Positions 47,305 through 60,999 of a DNA stretch of 64,000 nucleotides are shown here, piece after piece (position 1 is the stretch's first letter; each line of letters begins with the position of its first letter). The stretch comes from Planctomycetales bacterium 10988 (lineage in GTDB: Bacteria > Planctomycetota > Planctomycetia > Pirellulales > Pb10988). The notes below the pieces were generated by a model. It had not been told where the DNA came from and ran no database searches. It worked only from the letters and a program-made list of their open reading frames with translations. Made by a program: the position numbers and the translations under genes. The stretch is from NCBI GenBank assembly GCA_009664345.1, contig CP043547.1:744001-808000 (forward strand). Reading direction: 5' to 3'.

Positions 47305-49131
47305 TTAACTTTCAAGTTTCTTTATCGTTTGCTTGACCAACTTCGTTCCATGAAGTATGCGTTCGATGATTACTTCGCGATGTCGATTCAAATGTTGACA
47401 AGCTTCAGGAAGTTCTTGCCAAGGTTGTAAAATTGAAGCTTGATAAATATTTGTAGCCGCGACGTAACTTGTTTGCAAATCGGAAGCAAACGCCATCCTC
47501 TTCATTTCTAATTTTGGATCATCGAGTCGCAGATGATCAATAATCTTCAGTTCATCAGGCTCCGATCGGTCTCTTTTTTTCCAATAAAAATGACGCTTGA
47601 AAAACAGAGAAGATTTCTTTCGACCCGTGATCAATCTTTTTTGCAGAAGGTTTCGAACAAAGTCTCGAAAAAACCTGCCTATCGATAGCATCACGATTCT
47701 TAGAAGAATTGACTTCGAAGGTGTCACCGTTTCAAATTTACATTCATGAGCGAACCCACTGACTTCAATTTTTCCGTTCTTTTCGTTCTCATCTACATAA
47801 AATAACCGTGAAAGGGAATGTTTCTGTGTAGTGAGAAACTTGCCTCGATTGGTTTCAAAAAGAAGTCCACAATCAGTAAACACTTGATTCTCTGCCAAGG
47901 TCACTTTTACTATTCCCCCACGTGCTGCCGAGACAACAGTGGAAGCAAGCAAATGACCATCGTTCGAAGTTTTCTTCACCCAAATTTGAGCCGTATTAAA
48001 TACTTTGGTTTCTTTATCTTTTTCATTGCGGACGGCTCGCTCAGGTGTCCATCGCAAGAAACTTTCTAAAAAACTTCCAAGCCGATGAATATAAAGACGA
48101 TCATCACAAAAAAGGGGCGATCGCTGACGTTGAAGGCTTTTTAAACATCCTTCCGCCAGGTCCGCCGCCCACGGATTTTGTTTACAAAGAATTTCAAAAG
48201 GTAAGGGGTAAAAATGGAAGGTTCCTCGGCTTCCATATTCTCCTCCATAGCTTCCATCGGGGTGCAGAAACCACCAAGCAAATTGAATCCCTTTTTGAAT
48301 CGCACGATCTAAAGGATGAGACCGAGGTGAATAGGTTTCGCTTTTGTGGATCGTGTCAGTTTTTTCCAAGGCCCGAAATTGAAGTAAACATTCTAAAGTT
48401 ACCGTTTGATAGCCAGGGTCAGCCCCGCCATATTCTTCAAACCAACCTTCTTCATTTTGCCAAGCGAGGACTTGTTCCATACGTTGCCAAGCGAGTTTAC
48501 GATACTCTTCGGACTTTATTATTTGCGAATAACGTAATAATGCTAACGCGGCTAAGGCATGATGATTGGTTAAATTTCCACTCTCTTGATGTTCAGCTAT
48601 CCACCGTGCTCGTTTAGCAAACCAATTTAATAATTTCTCATCCCGCAGATCTAAAAGTTGATAGGCCGCCGTCGCTGCCTGAAAAGAGAAGACCGCTGCT
48701 CCTAATGCTCTTTCATAAGGATAATAATCGTCGCATGATCCATCAGCATGACAACTCTTTGCGGCAAAGTGCATTCCGGCAATAGCTAACTCTCGAAGCT
48801 TTTCTTCGCCCTGCCAGCGATTGTTAGGATAGCGGTGTTTATAAATAAGTGCTAAAGGCCAAACCGCTTCTTGATACATTTCCGACGGAAAATCACTGGT
48901 ACGAAAGTGCCAATACTCACGGTCAAAGCAGCCATACGTTTCACGAAAAGGGTTGCGATCCACAGCGGTCAACAAACGCGGAACTTCCTTTATCGCATGA
49001 TCGCTATAAAGTTTTCTTAAGGAAGGGTCTCTAGCAACCGTAGAAAACTCTGAAGATGTACTGGGAGAATCATCAATATTTCCATCGATCCAAAAATTTT
49101 TCACTTCGGAACTAACCATGTTTCTCTCCAA
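47305..49131 (-). CDS. alpha/alpha-toroid protein, possible glycan-active enzyme
   Basis: It has 608 residues with no signal peptide. The first 370 residues show repeated helix pairs of the toroid type found in terpene cyclases, heparinases and several glycoside hydrolases (GNLTNHHALAALALLRYSQI; GGADPGYQTVTLECLLQF; PDGSYGGEYGSRGTFHFYP). The second half is beta-rich in the manner of heparinase-like C-terminal domains (LASTVVSAARGGIVKVTL). I do not recognise an exact family and cannot place catalytic residues with certainty; the His/Tyr pairs in NHH and HFYP are candidates. It sits 46 bases after the GT2 gene in the same operon, so action on the product glycan is inferred. Confidence 0.6.
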   Translation of the reverse strand: MERNMVSSEVKNFWIDGNIDDSPSTSSEFSTVARDPSLRKLYSDHAIKEVPRLLTAVDRNPFRETYGCFDREYWHFRTSDFPSEMYQEAVWPLALIYKHRYPNNRWQGEEKLRELAIAGMHFAAKSCHADGSCDDYYPYERALGAAVFSFQAATAAYQLLDLRDEKLLNWFAKRARWIAEHQESGNLTNHHALAALALLRYSQIIKSEEYRKLAWQRMEQVLAWQNEEGWFEEYGGADPGYQTVTLECLLQFRALEKTDTIHKSETYSPRSHPLDRAIQKGIQFAWWFLHPDGSYGGEYGSRGTFHFYPLPFEILCKQNPWAADLAEGCLKSLQRQRSPLFCDDRLYIHRLGSFLESFLRWTPERAVRNEKDKETKVFNTAQIWVKKTSNDGHLLASTVVSAARGGIVKVTLAENQVFTDCGLLFETNRGKFLTTQKHSLSRLFYVDENEKNGKIEVSGFAHECKFETVTPSKSILLRIVMLSIGRFFRDFVRNLLQKRLITGRKKSSLFFKRHFYWKKRDRSEPDELKIIDHLRLDDPKLEMKRMAFASDLQTSYVAATNIYQASILQPWQELPEACQHLNRHREVIIERILHGTKLVKQTIKKLES

Positions 49132-49177: not shown

Positions 49178-50110
49178 TTATCTTCGATGGTGAGCGACAA
49201 CGACTTCGGCTAACAATCCGACAATGCACGTCATAAATCCGGCGGTAAACATCACCAAGTCAGACTCTTGCATGGAACCGGTCAAAGAAAAACTAAAAGC
49301 GCTTTTGATAACACTGGCGAAGATCATCAACCCAGAGAGCGGTAAAAAAATCTTCAACGGCCGAAAATACATCACAATTCGTAACACGGTTCCTAAATAA
49401 GCGAACGTGTCATGAATGGGATGAAATTTACTTTTCCCGATCCGCGGCCTGTAAGAAGTAGGAACATATTTGACAGGATGGCCGTTCGTTAAAAAAGCCA
49501 ATGTCATGGTAGTAACACAACTAAAACCATCCGGAATCACCCAAATCCAAGGAAGCATCGTCTCTCGTTTAAAGGCTTTCAATCCTGTATTTAAATCAGG
49601 AATTTTTTTTCCTGTTAAATAACAAGCGAGTTGACGAATGAACCACTTTGCTGGAACTCTTAAATAGGGGAGTGTTCCTTGTTCGCTGGTCCGGGCACCG
49701 TTGACTTGATCGTATTGAGGAAAATAACTCAACAAAGTTTTAATATGTTCGGCGGGGTACGTTCCGTCGGCATCGAGCATGACGATGATTTCGCCTTGAG
49801 CCGACTTAATCCCGGTCTTGCGGGCTGCCCCGGCTCCGCCATTTTCAGGTCGTTCAAGGATGCGTATTGAAGTTTGCCAACATTCCGCCGCAAACTTTCG
49901 CGCGAGCTGAACCGTAGCATCGGTAGAAGCATCGTCAACAATTAATATTTCCCACGTCCGTTCTTCATCCGCCAATGTATTCACGATTTCCTCAAGAACC
50001 GATACAATGGCTAACTCTTCATTGAAGGTCGGAAGTAAAACAGTAAAGGCGACTTGCTGTTCAATCGTCGATGTGGAACTGGCTAAAGCTTCGGTTTGCC
50101 AACCTTCCAT
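49178..50110 (-). CDS. family 2 glycosyltransferase with C-terminal membrane helices
   Basis: It has 310 residues: a GT-A catalytic domain (about 20-240), then two membrane helices (about 250-305). Motifs are LLPTFNEELAIVSVLEEI, LIVDDASTDATVQLA, the metal site MLDADGTYPAEHI and the later DLNTGLKAFKRE block. The layout matches polyprenyl-phosphate sugar transferases (DPM/ArnC-like) that load a lipid carrier at the inner face of the membrane. It is first in the minus-strand operon with the toroid and flippase-like genes. Donor and acceptor are unknown. Confidence 0.88.
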   Translation of the reverse strand: MEGWQTEALASSTSTIEQQVAFTVLLPTFNEELAIVSVLEEIVNTLADEERTWEILIVDDASTDATVQLARKFAAECWQTSIRILERPENGGAGAARKTGIKSAQGEIIVMLDADGTYPAEHIKTLLSYFPQYDQVNGARTSEQGTLPYLRVPAKWFIRQLACYLTGKKIPDLNTGLKAFKRETMLPWIWVIPDGFSCVTTMTLAFLTNGHPVKYVPTSYRPRIGKSKFHPIHDTFAYLGTVLRIVMYFRPLKIFLPLSGLMIFASVIKSAFSFSLTGSMQESDLVMFTAGFMTCIVGLLAEVVVAHHRR

Positions 50111-50321
50111 GGCGGCTCCTCCCTCAAACTAATCTTGGTAGAGCAGTTGCTCCAAGGTGATTCAGCGAGGCACCTTAACTAAACTCCGTCTTTTGACCAA
50201 GATCAATTTTCATGACCTGTTAAGTGAGGAAATATATAGGACTTGGTCAAAAAGTAGATTGTTTATTTTCTAATAAAGGTTGTTTAAGGATCGTTCCTTA
50301 TCTTGAGTAAAGATAAATAAA

Positions 50322-50942
50322 ATGGATAAAGTATTATTAACAGCGTTTGAACCTTTTGGAGCGTATTCAGAGAATTCGAGTCTGCTCTGTCTAGAAAGAG
50401 TCAGTGCGGAGCTTGAAAGCCGTCTTCCCAATCTTCGAGTAGAGACTCGGGTTTATCCTGTTGATTTTCTAGCTGCCAGAGAAGTTTTACAAGCGGACCT
50501 TTACGAAGACATGTATCGATTTTGTTTACATCTTGGGCAATCTTCCCAATCCCCCAAAATTCAACTGGAGTTGATTGCCCTCAATAAACAGGGCGATCCT
50601 TTAATCTCTCCAGAGGAATATCCTTCGCTTGTCCGGTCCGGTCCGCTGGCCTATGAAAGTCGTCTCCCTGCCAAAAAGTGGATCAATAAACTACGCGAGA
50701 GAGGAATCCCAGCGACCGTCAGTTTCTTTGCGGGGCTTTATCTTTGTAATGGACTTTATTACTGGAATTTACATTTTCAAGCGAAGAATCAAACGAAGAC
50801 GCCTGTCCTTTTTCTTCACTTACCTTTACTTGAAAGTCAGTTGTCCCCAGAGAAACAGCCGAAGCGTATTTTAACGCTTGAGGAACTTAAAGAAGCTGTC
50901 CTTGTCATTTTAGAAAATATTGACGACTTGAAAGAACTTTAA
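50322..50942 (+). CDS. pcp: pyroglutamyl-peptidase I family protein
   Basis: It should remove N-terminal pyroglutamate from peptides in the cytoplasm. It has 206 residues, the usual length. Family signs are VLLTAFEPFGAYSENSS at the start and the C15 catalytic set: Glu83 in IQLELIALN, Cys142 in SFFAGLYLCNGLYYW and His166 in VLFLHLPLLESQ. The Glu region is divergent from the common GxxxxTPExVA block. The gene is A+T-rich and stands alone, divergent from the glycan operon. Confidence 0.85.
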   Translation: MDKVLLTAFEPFGAYSENSSLLCLERVSAELESRLPNLRVETRVYPVDFLAAREVLQADLYEDMYRFCLHLGQSSQSPKIQLELIALNKQGDPLISPEEYPSLVRSGPLAYESRLPAKKWINKLRERGIPATVSFFAGLYLCNGLYYWNLHFQAKNQTKTPVLFLHLPLLESQLSPEKQPKRILTLEELKEAVLVILENIDDLKEL

Positions 50943-51059
50943 CTATTGTAAGGGCAAAAGTTTATTCTGTTAAAGTTTAAACTGCGATTATTGATTGACT
51001 CTGCTTCAAGGTGAGCTAGGATTTTAAAGCCTGCTTTCTCGAATGGATAGGGAATTTCA

Positions 51060-52916
51060 ATGATGGATCGCAAACAATCTTATTTAGTACAACCTTTCTT
51101 TTTATCCCTCCTAGTATTCACACTATTAGGAGTATCTGCATTTGCTCAGTCGAGCTATCAACCTCCTCATCTTTTGCCGACTCAAGGTTTGCAAGCAGAG
51201 CCGCTGCAATCGGATCGACATTTAATGCGGGAGTTGACCAAGCCGCATGTCCAATCGGCACGGCAGCAATTTCCTGTCCCTTGGGAAACGCTTGGCCATT
51301 CACGAGAAGGTCGCCCCATTCAATATGCAACCTTTGGCGAAGGCCAATATAAGGTATTGGTGCTCGGGCCATTTCAAGGAGATGAGATTGCCGCGTTGGA
51401 ATTTGTGGACCAGTTGGCGATTTATCTCGACCGCTCCCGCAATCAGTTGGGTGATCGTTCGATTCGCGTTATTCGTCTGCCGAATCCGGATGGTTTCGTT
51501 CAAGGTGTTCGCGGAAATGTGCATGGGGTGGAAATTAATCGAAACTTCCCCGCTCGCAACTGGCAGCAAATCTCCGGAGGTACGCACTGGATTTCGGGGA
51601 CTCGCCCTGCCAGTGAGCCGGAAACTCAATTGCTAATGCAAGAAATTGAGCGGTGGAAGCCCGGTCGGATTATCCTGCTGAATGCGGATTCGAACCGGCC
51701 TGAAATCGGTTGGGCCGGGGCTAGTCATCTCTTGGCACAAACGTTGGCGATGAAGGCTGAGATTCCGATGGCTCGCAAAGGGGAGCATTGGATTTCTGGT
51801 TCGCTTGCTGCTTACTACGGGGCGGAACGGCAAATTCCGCTGCTTTCGTTGACGTTTCCTAGTGGAAACTTTCAATCGTTTCAAACGGAACGAGGCAGGG
51901 TGACGACGCCGCAACATACGCAAACGGCGGAACGATGGCAGAAGTTTGGCCCGATTGCTTTGTCGGCATTGGAGTTGTCTCCGCAAACGCTGCCTGATTC
52001 TCGGCGACCTGAACCGGCCACAAATGGGGGTTTATCGAAGGCTCCTCAAGTGACCTACTATCGGCCACAGGCTCCTAGTTCGTCGCAAATGAATCAATAT
52101 CGGCAGAACTTAATTCCGCAACCTGTCCCTGGTCAGCGAAGTACGCCGGAAGGTCAAACGCCTTCGATGCTCGCGGGCACGCCTGCTCCGAACGCGGAGA
52201 ATCCGAATACTCAGATACCGGCTCAATCGCCAGCAATGCCGGATCGTTTGCCAGCCTTAGGACCAAATTATCGACAACCCGAACCGAATTTAACGGCGGA
52301 AAAACCTTCGGAGCCTCAAGGCCCGCGGGCTCCGACGCATTCGGTTTCGACTCCGATTCCCTCTCGGGAACCCGCGACTCCGACGACGAACCGACGATGG
52401 GAGAATAATTTCGTTCAGCCAAAAGAGGTGGTGAATCCGTTTGATGGGGTTGCACAAACTCCCCCGCCGACGAAACCTTCCGCCCGGTTGCCGATGCAAA
52501 AATCGGAAGCCCCGCCTGCGGCAAGTCGTGGCGATGCTCGGCCTTTCTGGGAATTTAACCAAGGTTCCGAAGAAACGCCCACTGCTTCGCAACCCCCTGT
52601 AGAACGACGACCTTCGCCTAATCCAGAAGTGAACCAAACGCCTCCGACGATCGAGATTGTCCCGGTGGCACCCTTGGTTCCACTCAATGCTTCCAAAGCA
52701 AACTCCCCGATGGCTAGCTCTGAATCAGGCCAAAACGCTCAATTTGTTTCTTCGGAAAAGGAAATCCCCGATCCTATGGAGGGTCCTCGCTTGCTGCGGC
52801 TTCCGCCTATCGATCGAGTTCAACCTCGGGCGAAAATCGAGAAACTCCCTGAGGAAGAGATGCCCGCCCACTTGCCAAAGCCGATTCCTTATTATTATCA
52901 AAAGACGGATCAATAA
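51060..52916 (+). CDS. secreted M14 carboxypeptidase-like protein, predicted inactive
   Basis: It has 618 residues. A signal peptide (about 1-29) leads to an M14/MpaA-like domain (about 65-315), then a long Pro/Ser/Thr-rich disordered tail (315-618). The substrate-binding block GNVHGVEINRNFPARNW is well kept. The catalytic positions are changed: the first zinc ligand His is Gln106 in GPFQGDE (Glu109 remains), the third ligand His is Asn208 in RIILLNADS, and the general-base Glu position is Thr265 in PLLSLTFPSG. It should therefore bind but not cleave, perhaps peptidoglycan peptides. Its distribution and partners are unknown. Confidence 0.82.
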   Translation: MMDRKQSYLVQPFFLSLLVFTLLGVSAFAQSSYQPPHLLPTQGLQAEPLQSDRHLMRELTKPHVQSARQQFPVPWETLGHSREGRPIQYATFGEGQYKVLVLGPFQGDEIAALEFVDQLAIYLDRSRNQLGDRSIRVIRLPNPDGFVQGVRGNVHGVEINRNFPARNWQQISGGTHWISGTRPASEPETQLLMQEIERWKPGRIILLNADSNRPEIGWAGASHLLAQTLAMKAEIPMARKGEHWISGSLAAYYGAERQIPLLSLTFPSGNFQSFQTERGRVTTPQHTQTAERWQKFGPIALSALELSPQTLPDSRRPEPATNGGLSKAPQVTYYRPQAPSSSQMNQYRQNLIPQPVPGQRSTPEGQTPSMLAGTPAPNAENPNTQIPAQSPAMPDRLPALGPNYRQPEPNLTAEKPSEPQGPRAPTHSVSTPIPSREPATPTTNRRWENNFVQPKEVVNPFDGVAQTPPPTKPSARLPMQKSEAPPAASRGDARPFWEFNQGSEETPTASQPPVERRPSPNPEVNQTPPTIEIVPVAPLVPLNASKANSPMASSESGQNAQFVSSEKEIPDPMEGPRLLRLPPIDRVQPRAKIEKLPEEEMPAHLPKPIPYYYQKTDQ

Positions 52917-53436
52917 CCGTCCGAACTTTGATGGACCTTCGAAATTCGAATCGCTCCTCGTAATAGATAAAGAGAAGAGTTTGAGAATTGAAGGGAATGA
53001 TCCCAAATTTCTACTTGAGGTTTCGGGGGCTTTGTTGATAATGAAGGACAGGGCACAATGCTGGCAACCTACCTTTTGTCAGCGCGGAAGTGATTTAATT
53101 GTTACTCTATCTTTCACAAAACCCGGAATTCAAACTCTGAATTCGATGTAGATATCTACTGAAATTCATTGCAATTCTGAGGTTTGTTGTAAGATAAAAT
53201 AATTGACCTAACTTCCCAATTCCGTAACTATTAAGGAAGAAAACTTCGGTTTTTCATCGAGATATTGATTGCCAAGGATTTCCTTGTCACTTAAGTTGGA
53301 ATTTTCAATCGGTCATCACTTGGTAGGAGTTGCATGCTTGCAATCTCCTTGTCGAGAAGTCATGGCTCACGGACGAAGCATGAGAGATAGATTGAAATCG
53401 TTTAAGGAATTTGATCCTTTCACTTGAGAGAACCCG
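52917..53436. other. intergenic region before the ECF sigma gene
   Basis: These 520 bases are A+T-rich. A plus-strand frame (52657-53151) runs from inside the M14-like gene into this region and is rejected as out of frame with it and of poor composition. No clear promoter was identified for the sigma factor gene, though it must lie here. Confidence 0.45.
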
Positions 53437-54069
53437 GTGGCTAAAGACCAATTAAACCCGTTTTCCGGCGGAATGAGTCCCAGCGGCATCGAGTCCATCT
53501 CTACAAGTCTTCTTGAACGTCTCAAGGCCCATGATCAAGAAGGCTGGCAGCGGATGAGTAAACTTTACTGTCCGCTTGTCTTCAGTTGGTGCCTCCGGCA
53601 TCGGCTGCAACCGGATGATGCCTCGGATGTCGTACAAGAAGTGTTTCGAACCGTTGCGATCAAGATCGATTCTTTTCGACGTGATCGGCAAGGGGATACC
53701 TTCCGTGGCTGGCTTTGGACAATCACTCGTCACAAACTCGGGGATTACTTCCGCAAGGAAAAACGCCGTGACCAAGCATCCGGCGGTTCCGATGCTCAGG
53801 CCCTCTTTATGCAAATCCCCGAGGAATATGCCAACGATGATTCTTCCTATATGGAAGATGGAGAAGCGGGAAGTCTCTATCATCGGGCCTTGAGCTTGAT
53901 TCGCCAGGATTTCACTGAAAAAAGCTGGCATGCCTTCTATCAAGTCGTCGTCGAAGACCGTCCGGTAGACGAAGTGGCCGCCGCGCTGGATATGTCGAGC
54001 AATGCCGTTTATATTGCCAAAAGTAGAATTCTGGCTCGGCTTCGACAGGAGCTAGGCGACCAAGATTAA
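53437..54069 (+). CDS. ECF-type RNA polymerase sigma factor
   Basis: It has 210 residues from a GTG start (an ATG at 53473 is also possible). Region 2 is visible: AHDQEGWQRMSKLYCPLVF, then DDASDVVQEVFRTVAIKI and FRGWLWTITRHKLGDYFRKE. Region 4 is a helix-turn-helix: RPVDEVAAALDMSSNAVYIAKSRILARLRQEL. No zinc-type anti-sigma gene follows; instead a Ser/Thr kinase gene starts 33 bases later. That pairing is known for planctomycete ECF groups and suggests control by phosphorylation. Confidence 0.92.
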   Translation: MAKDQLNPFSGGMSPSGIESISTSLLERLKAHDQEGWQRMSKLYCPLVFSWCLRHRLQPDDASDVVQEVFRTVAIKIDSFRRDRQGDTFRGWLWTITRHKLGDYFRKEKRRDQASGGSDAQALFMQIPEEYANDDSSYMEDGEAGSLYHRALSLIRQDFTEKSWHAFYQVVVEDRPVDEVAAALDMSSNAVYIAKSRILARLRQELGDQD

Positions 54070-59280: not shown

Positions 59281-60999
59281 ATGTATATGGGAGTCTGTGA
59301 CCGAGGTTCACGAGGTGGCGGGCTCCTCAATCAAATCCGAAGTCTTATTGATCGCATTGAGGAGCTGAATCCTAACCCTCTTCCTATCGTGGTTCGAAGT
59401 TTGGATTATCCTAAAACGGGAAAAACTTGCGACTTACTGGCGAAGGAAATCATTTCCAAACGAAAGGGGAGAAGGACGACCATTGAGAATTCTGATTGGC
59501 GCAGAATGACGGCACTTGAAAAATTTCGCGAAGAACATGCTAACAACCAATTCTTCGATCAATGGTTACTGAGTTACCGTCCGCTGACAAGCCTACCTTC
59601 GATCCGAGCCATCTTAGACCTTGATAACCCACCGCAGCTACCCTCGGATCAATCCTCGGAGCTTCCTAGAACCGATCCGAGCGACTCTTCCGATGTCCCT
59701 GCCAAAGAGAGCTCTGGTCCTTCCCCTTTGACGGAAGACAAAAAACCGACTGGCGACATTGATATTGGACTAAGTCGATTAAGCACTCAGACTAAAGTCC
59801 TGGTGAATTCGCAGAAGCTGAAAAGACATGCTGCATTTCTCGGAGGAACAGGTAGCGGAAAAACAACCGCGGCAATGAATGTAATTGAACAATTGTTGCT
59901 TGATGGAATCCCTGCAATTCTTCTGGATCGCAAAGGAGACCTTAGCTGCTATGCTCACCCTAAGACTTGGTCCGATTCTTTGAATGGTCCAGACTTTCAA
60001 CTTCGGGAACAGCGACGTGGTCAATTGCAACAGAAAATAGATATCGCCATCTATACACCAGGTAATCCCGAGGGAAGGCCGCTCGCCTTACCAATCCTGC
60101 CTACTGGAACTTCGCTCCTGGCTGAGCATGAACAGGAGAAACTTTGCCGATGTGCAGCGAGTTCCCTCGTCGGCATGATGGGTTACTCTAACAAAGGCGC
60201 ATCTTCGAAAGTTGCGATTCTATTCCATGCTTTAAAATTGCTTTGTAAACAATCTTCAACGGCAACCACCTTGAGTAAGCTTATTGAATCGATCGATTCA
60301 GAAAACAGTGAATTGGTCTCTGCGATTGGAAAGTTGGATGTCAGAAATTTTGAAAAGATTGTTGAAGGGTTGGAGTCTATTCGCACTTTAAAAAGTCATC
60401 TCTTTCTTGAAGGTGGGGAATCACTGGATGCAGAGAGATTGTTCGGGATCAATAACTTTGCTAGTCCCCAAAAAACAAAACTAACGATTATCAATCTTAA
60501 ATTTCTAGACGACCTGGAAGACACTCAATTTTGGGTGAGTATGTTGCTTATGGAACTTGAAAGATGGACCAAGCAATCTCCCTCTGAACAACTCCAAGGT
60601 GTCATCCTCCTGGATGAAGCAGATATTTATCTTCCTGCCATGGGGAAACCAGCAACAAAGCAACCACTGGAAAGTCTTTTAAAGAGAGCCCGCTCGGCTG
60701 GTTTAGGAATACTACTTGCCACCCAATCGCCGGGTGACTTTGATTATAAATGCCGTGACAATATTGGAACGTGGATGTTAGGACGCATTCAATCTGACAC
60801 TGCGATCAAGAAGATGAAACCACTTTTGGAAGATTGTAAATCCGATGTTTCAAAGAAGCTGGCTTCTCAAGAATTAGGTCAATTTTTCCTGGCCTCGGAA
60901 GGCGATGTGAATGCCGTTCAATCCCGCTGCTCAGCGATTCTAACGACCCAATTGTCAGGAACTGAATTACTCGAAGCTGTCGAGTGTCAAAAAGAGTAA
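59281..60999 (+). CDS. HerA/FtsK-like P-loop ATPase, possibly 5'-truncated by the IS
   Basis: It has 572 residues from the first ATG. Walker A is GGTGSGKTT (188-196), preceded by KLKRHAAFL, with LLDRKGDL after it. Walker B is GVILLDEADIYLP (440-452), followed by RARSAGLGILLATQSPGDFD, the pattern of HerA/VirB4-like DNA translocases. A Ser/Pro/Asp-rich linker (120-160) divides it from an N-terminal region with no assignable fold. The frame stays open upstream without an ATG, GTG or TTG as far as the IS border at 59161, so the first 40 residues of open frame (up to HWTHEDNIVGQP) may be the remnant of a longer gene. No nuclease or SIR2 partner is adjacent. Confidence 0.75.
   Translation: MYMGVCDRGSRGGGLLNQIRSLIDRIEELNPNPLPIVVRSLDYPKTGKTCDLLAKEIISKRKGRRTTIENSDWRRMTALEKFREEHANNQFFDQWLLSYRPLTSLPSIRAILDLDNPPQLPSDQSSELPRTDPSDSSDVPAKESSGPSPLTEDKKPTGDIDIGLSRLSTQTKVLVNSQKLKRHAAFLGGTGSGKTTAAMNVIEQLLLDGIPAILLDRKGDLSCYAHPKTWSDSLNGPDFQLREQRRGQLQQKIDIAIYTPGNPEGRPLALPILPTGTSLLAEHEQEKLCRCAASSLVGMMGYSNKGASSKVAILFHALKLLCKQSSTATTLSKLIESIDSENSELVSAIGKLDVRNFEKIVEGLESIRTLKSHLFLEGGESLDAERLFGINNFASPQKTKLTIINLKFLDDLEDTQFWVSMLLMELERWTKQSPSEQLQGVILLDEADIYLPAMGKPATKQPLESLLKRARSAGLGILLATQSPGDFDYKCRDNIGTWMLGRIQSDTAIKKMKPLLEDCKSDVSKKLASQELGQFFLASEGDVNAVQSRCSAILTTQLSGTELLEAVECQKE

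Follow-up and report, generated by a model that had tools for sequence, protein, structure and literature searches.

A predicted M14 pseudopeptidase with an MpaA-like fold in a planctomycete genome, and its catalytically degenerate relatives in two orders

The M14 pseudopeptidases named in the sections of a 2024 review on which we draw are those of animals, namely AEBP1/ACLP, CPXM1, CPXM2 and domain III of CPD, together with the fungal Ecm14, and no bacterial one appears in those sections (PMC11266112). The animal proteins combine an M14 domain changed at some of positions 72, 127, 145, 196 and 270 with extracellular binding roles, which likens them to the protein described here; unlike it, they are eukaryotic and have discoidin or other domains attached (same sections of PMC11266112). 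Ecm14 is likewise a conserved M14 pseudopeptidase, tied to the cell wall and carrying Lys at position 270, that of the general base, but it is of the A/B type with a prodomain (PMC7706225, in the part used here) and keeps the zinc ligands H69, E72 and H196 (PMC11266112, as above). The roles studied in animal and fungal members are matrix binding and effects on the cell wall. Our own literature search, by titles and the openings of abstracts outside subscription papers and MEROPS, found no bacterial M14 pseudopeptidase family, and MEROPS may list single bacterial non-peptidase homologues. In the PDB, the top sequence match of our protein is the murein tripeptide amidase MpaA (5hxd, E 3e-12; also solved as 4axv), with which it shares a similar domain size and the NPDG and NRNFP motifs. 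Unlike MpaA, it is without both zinc His residues and the general-base Glu, scores 62.8 bits against the NCBIfam MpaA equivalog (PRK10602), under the cut-off of 157, and has both an N-terminus that resembles a signal peptide and a tail of some 300 residues rich in Pro.

The stretch of DNA analysed, hereafter the window, comprises 64,000 nucleotides from a genome of the Pirellulales (G000) that is the sole member of its family among the genomes searched. The gene runs from an ATG at 51060 to 52916 on the forward strand and encodes 618 amino acids, to which all residue numbers below refer. Residues 1-29 (51060-51146) form a probable Sec signal peptide, a hydrophobic core followed by AFA and then Q; the initial annotation's description of the protein as secreted holds as far as this N-terminus, which was read by eye without a predictor. 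The M14 domain as aligned, modelled and compared by Foldseek and VIA-align (alignments A3 and A4) covers residues 62-308 (51243-51983), and PF00246 (Peptidase_M14) matches the protein at 36.7 bits, over its curated cut-off of 21.6 (E 4.8e-9). There follows the long Pro-rich tail that had been noticed at the outset (residues 309-618, 51984-52913), in which 62 of the 307 residues from 312 to 618 are Pro (20%). An Rfam scan of window positions 50000-53500 returned no family at the gathering score.

An AlphaFold model of residues 62-308 reached pLDDT 74 and pTM 0.77, with model residues 99-123 under 50, and supersedes an earlier one from a 6-row alignment (pLDDT 69). Foldseek placed MpaA first with this model (4axv, E 4.0e-12) and second (5hxd), and VIA-align scored the two MpaA structures at Z 18.7 (rmsd 3.8, 212 aligned) and 18.4; its top row was mosquito procarboxypeptidase B1 (Z 18.9), MpaA being tied within 1 Z unit with many M14 peptidases. 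As modelled, then, the domain is a carboxypeptidase fold, and the M14 assignment of the initial annotation stands on the Pfam score together with MpaA as best match in both the PDB sequence search and Foldseek.

It is in the active site that the protein departs from its intact relatives. Aligned with intact planctomycete proteins of the MpaA-like type, Gln106 (51375-51377) replaces the first zinc His (QGDE opposite HGNE), Asn208 (51681-51683) the second (LLNADS opposite SIHQP), and Thr265 (51852-51854) the general-base Glu, residue 270 in bovine CPA1 (LTFP opposite LELP). The zinc-ligand set of His-x-x-Glu plus a further His is thus absent, as is the general-base Glu of active M14 metallopeptidases, and Glu109 (51384-51386) is the only ligand retained. 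Also retained are Asn160-Arg161 (51537-51542), taken as the pair that binds the substrate carboxylate, Asn144/Arg145 in the numbering of bovine CPA1 (PMC7706225, in part). The numbering of Q106, E109, N160, R161, N208 and T265 was verified directly and that of the initial annotation proved exact; its three substitutions are confirmed by the alignment, and its wording that most of the active site is removed is fair, since E109 and N160/R161 remain. Q106, N208 and T265 are model residues 45, 147 and 204 (61 subtracted), each within a predicted strand with block mean pLDDT of 80-88, and N160/R161 (model residues 99-100) lie inside the weak stretch. By sequence, we found no other His or Glu taking over the zinc site: the six Pirellulales domains described below have no invariant His or Cys. 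Nor can the substitutions be put down to chance, given that all six lack both zinc His residues and the general-base Glu. Judging from these alignments, the window copy has almost certainly lost zinc catalysis.

How widely are such copies distributed? The window protein as query matched 34 of 196 Pirellulales genomes at E up to 1e-3, and alignment A3 matched 60 of 396; the weaker matches are other M14 proteins. We call a copy dead, or degenerate, when at least one of the four catalytic residues is lost, and six of these Pirellulales copies, across five families, are both dead and long-tailed (6/396 genomes). At positions 106, 109, 208 and 265 they read QENT in the window protein, EEER in L006 (genome G022), GEAR in L007 (G004), ARAM in L008 (G009), ADSS in L009 (G001) and SEGA in L023 (G028). 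A broader profile run over 137 Pirellulales genomes added no further dead copies. Counted by family, both genomes of f5 have one and one of the seven of f2, and since the distribution is so patchy, the dead copy is dispensable in Pirellulales. All 16 aligned copies of family f6, which are MpaA-like and shorter, are intact. A contig search with back-translated patterns gave no close relatives with the window protein alone as query, and five loci with alignment A3: three intact Phycisphaerales proteins, and L092 and L093 on contigs of G022 and G009. PF00246 brought up apparently two other M14 ORFs in the window genome, adjacent, of about 600 aa and mutually close, which the window protein does not match at E 1e-3 (G000:C1:2408013-2410872, reverse strand; L001, L002, L004).

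The larger share of the family lies elsewhere. A search of the class matched 95 of 397 genomes at E 1e-15, a count that may miss a few copies since each genome had only a few candidates scored in the large searches (seven in this one), and 82 of the 95 belong to family f22, of another order, in which 80 of 85 loci were retrieved and examined. Together with the 16 f6 copies, the three from Phycisphaerales and the six dead Pirellulales copies, these 80 make an alignment of 105 planctomycete domains, of which 69 are degenerate (63 from f22, six from Pirellulales) and 36 intact (17, 16 and three from f22, f6 and Phycisphaerales). His-Glu-His-Glu is retained in all 36, the nearest intact relatives found, and all 17 loci checked outside the class are intact as well (a phylum search matched 55 genomes outside the class, and the loci come from 17 of these). 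The finding is therefore broader than the initial annotation supposed: a family over two planctomycete orders and not the quirk of one genome.

A tree built without the four catalytic columns has a single branch that parts degenerate from intact copies, with support 99/97 and in 200 of 200 bootstrap trees, and none of 500 label shuffles gave a split as low as that observed. As a guard against grouping by shared loss we dropped 28 columns that are near-invariant in intact copies and hold the same letter in fewer than 90% of degenerate ones; the split persisted (SH-aLRT 86, by a quick method without bootstrap), and the grouping of the six Pirellulales copies had support of 97, compared with 84/85 in the first tree. 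The window copy sits on an end branch of 1.48, and the placement of such long-branch rows is less sure. The tree is unrooted; if its root falls among the intact copies, as is likely, there was a single loss, and we consider it very probable that the dead copies are one family with one loss, the intact planctomycete proteins lying across one branch from it. With the catalytic residues lost in its orthologs too, the window protein is on sequence grounds an M14 pseudopeptidase, in the sense of kind and not of clade.

What was lost and what was kept differ sharply. Six residues, G93, G107, N142, P143, N153 and E188, are kept in 69/69 degenerate domains, Asn160 in 58 and Arg161 in 50, whereas the intact letter survives at position 208 in none, at 265 in one, at 106 in 11 and at 109 in 19 (Asp in 45). 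The shell of the domain thus looks constrained and the catalytic set free. The initial annotation had asked whether orthologs keep the changes: the losses are common to the six Pirellulales members, and His208 is missing from every degenerate row. Degenerate copies range from mild loss to complete replacement of the catalytic residues. Nine f22 copies keep His106 and Glu109; in them position 208 is Lys or Thr and position 265 is Leu, Ala or Val, and since they differ at catalytic positions only at these two, they could still bind a metal. W75 and R139, considered as marks of the dead family, were dropped, as all three intact Phycisphaerales copies carry both.

In f22, a genomic association sets dead copies apart. 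A conserved gene of about 228 aa lies directly upstream on the same strand in all 63 dead f22 loci (for example at L149:7536-8216, conserved in the 62 further loci), with no more than 335 bases (median 47) between its end and the M14 frame, against none of the 17 intact f22 copies within the flanks examined, although at intact locus L119 the contig ends about 580 bases upstream and the gene could be missed there. Its product is highly conserved and unannotated, and is present in 140 of 146 Pirellulales genomes; in the window genome the gene lies far from the window (G000:C1:2390409-2391098). Four copies matched nothing in Pfam even at E 10, and the PDB gave nothing better than E 0.14. Downstream of the dead copy, on the opposite strand, G001 and 6/63 f22 loci have a PH-like gene whose match falls short of the Pfam cut-off; by recurring in both, it links the two orders.

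The window copy has a different neighbour. Upstream, after a gap of 117 bases, lies a Peptidase_C15 gene like pyroglutamyl peptidase I (50322-50942, forward strand; PF01470 E 1.1e-26, PDB 6ltq E 3e-29). Alignment with the solved pyroglutamyl peptidase matches its Cys-Asn and His motifs, which we take to be catalytic. The C15 gene is adjacent in only two of the six Pirellulales genomes with a dead copy (G000 and G001); a C15 match lies on a different contig in G009, and a search of G004, G022 and G028 gave no match, so that we rejected it as an obligate partner. In G001, blastp gave the C15 gene but missed the M14 gene, which profile and phmmer searches recovered.

The most likely reading, to which we give a probability of about 0.6, is that the window protein belongs to an old planctomycete pseudopeptidase family, once an MpaA-like enzyme and now a binding protein of the envelope that holds no zinc. 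Computation shows the fold retained and the zinc and acid-base residues lost. On this reading the ancestor would have been a secreted MpaA-like zinc amidase or carboxypeptidase; its descendant in the window would hold no catalytic zinc and be unable to cut, and would act as a binding module outside the cytoplasm, presenting the old pocket or a nearby surface to a partner, be it a peptide, a muropeptide or a protein, with the Pro-rich tail as a spacer that ends in a short docking peptide. We regard a binding role outside the cytoplasm as probable, and the ligand may be peptidoglycan or a peptide. The pocket of the window copy could still hold a peptide carboxylate, since Glu109, Arg151, Asn160 and Arg161 survive in it; one ligand across the Pirellulales copies is doubtful, given that four of the six no longer have Arg161 (M, C, H and H instead) and three no longer Arg151. 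Their pockets differ mutually, half or more having lost two of the three residues that once bound the carboxylate, and this, together with the rarity of dead copies in Pirellulales, speaks against the binding reading. As to how a pocket might outlive its metal, it is tempting, and distinctly tentative, to suppose that after one ancient loss a cation of the protein's own took the place of the zinc, a salt bridge standing in for the metal and keeping the peptide-binding pocket. Exactly one Lys or Arg stands among the four old catalytic positions in 57/69 degenerate members; 40 members are basic at 208 and 16 at 265, none at both, and an acid is found at 106 or 109 in 64/69. The single Lys/Arg is missing from the window protein (Q, E, N, T) and from ten other members, and one further member has two. 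This charge swap was set aside as evidence, since no more than 4-5 changes on the tree produce the pattern and it falls short of significance when tree-aware pairs are used.

Could the protein have kept hydrolase activity, through a metal site arranged differently or through catalytic residues gained anew? A residue has indeed been gained on the f22 branch: Glu250 stands in 59/63 f22 copies in place of a Gly invariant in the intact set. Glu109, moreover, survives in the window copy. However, none of the six Pirellulales members has Glu250 (they carry A, A, A, P, V and L), their domains have no His or Cys common to all, and the four old catalytic positions vary widely, which makes continued hydrolysis quite improbable. 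Pseudoenzymes sometimes regulate their active cousins, according to the consulted sections of PMC11266112, and the initial annotation had suggested a decoy or regulator, whose target would here be an active MpaA paralogue of the same genome. An intact MpaA-type copy was found together with the dead one in only 3/63 f22 genomes (threshold E 1e-15, seven candidates scored per genome, 80/85 loci examined) and 0/6 Pirellulales genomes. This weakens the suggestion, and we hold it to be improbable.

A further view is that the domain is a mere structural spacer or piece of a surface adhesin, with function residing in the tail and its C-terminal peptide. All six Pirellulales dead copies have 117-306 aa after the domain, against at most 14 in the 36 intact ones, and 42/63 f22 dead copies end in a [Y/F]xxLP motif that no intact copy has (0/36). 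Against this, the tails of the Pirellulales members align poorly while the six shell residues are invariant throughout, and we think it unlikely that the domain is inert. Very improbable, lastly, is a decaying gene without function: end branches are long, that of the window copy included, and the gene is rare in Pirellulales, but the frames are open at all 69 loci, the shell is conserved, and gene order is strict in 63/63 f22 copies. The open frames, the 228-aa gene at every dead f22 copy and no intact one, and the recurring PH-like gene are rather signs of function, in keeping with the binding protein that we favour.

The termini vary in their detail. The C-terminal LPKPIPYYYQKTDQ of the window protein (52872-52913, forward strand) resembles LPQPIPLYPETGY and LPQPIPFYPETGS of L006 and L007, the three having an LP[QK]PIP peptide in common. 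In f22 the tail is not uniform, 21/63 dead copies being without the C-terminal motif, and its strict form ends 0/3309 other ORFs in the scanned loci. A crude scan of the 63 f22 dead copies, which is not a signal prediction, found a lipobox in 17, another hydrophobic stretch in 40 and neither in six. L006, L007 and L008 end in YPETGY, YPETGS and YPSTGYPE, which to us recall the sortase-type LPxTG signal, but without the membrane segment that would follow it.

The planctomycete envelope is still debated, and a dead family that spans two orders, locked in f22 to a conserved uncharacterised gene, offers a tractable case of a cell-wall enzyme turned binding protein, seeming to derive from a murein-peptide amidase. 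Two other genes of the window may be recorded here. At 59281-60999, models of HerA/CedD-type ATPases match far under their cut-offs. An ORF at 47305-49131, whose 608-aa product has no Pfam match at E 0.1, is flanked by the genes of a GT2 glycosyltransferase and of a membrane protein of the LPG_synthase_TM type.
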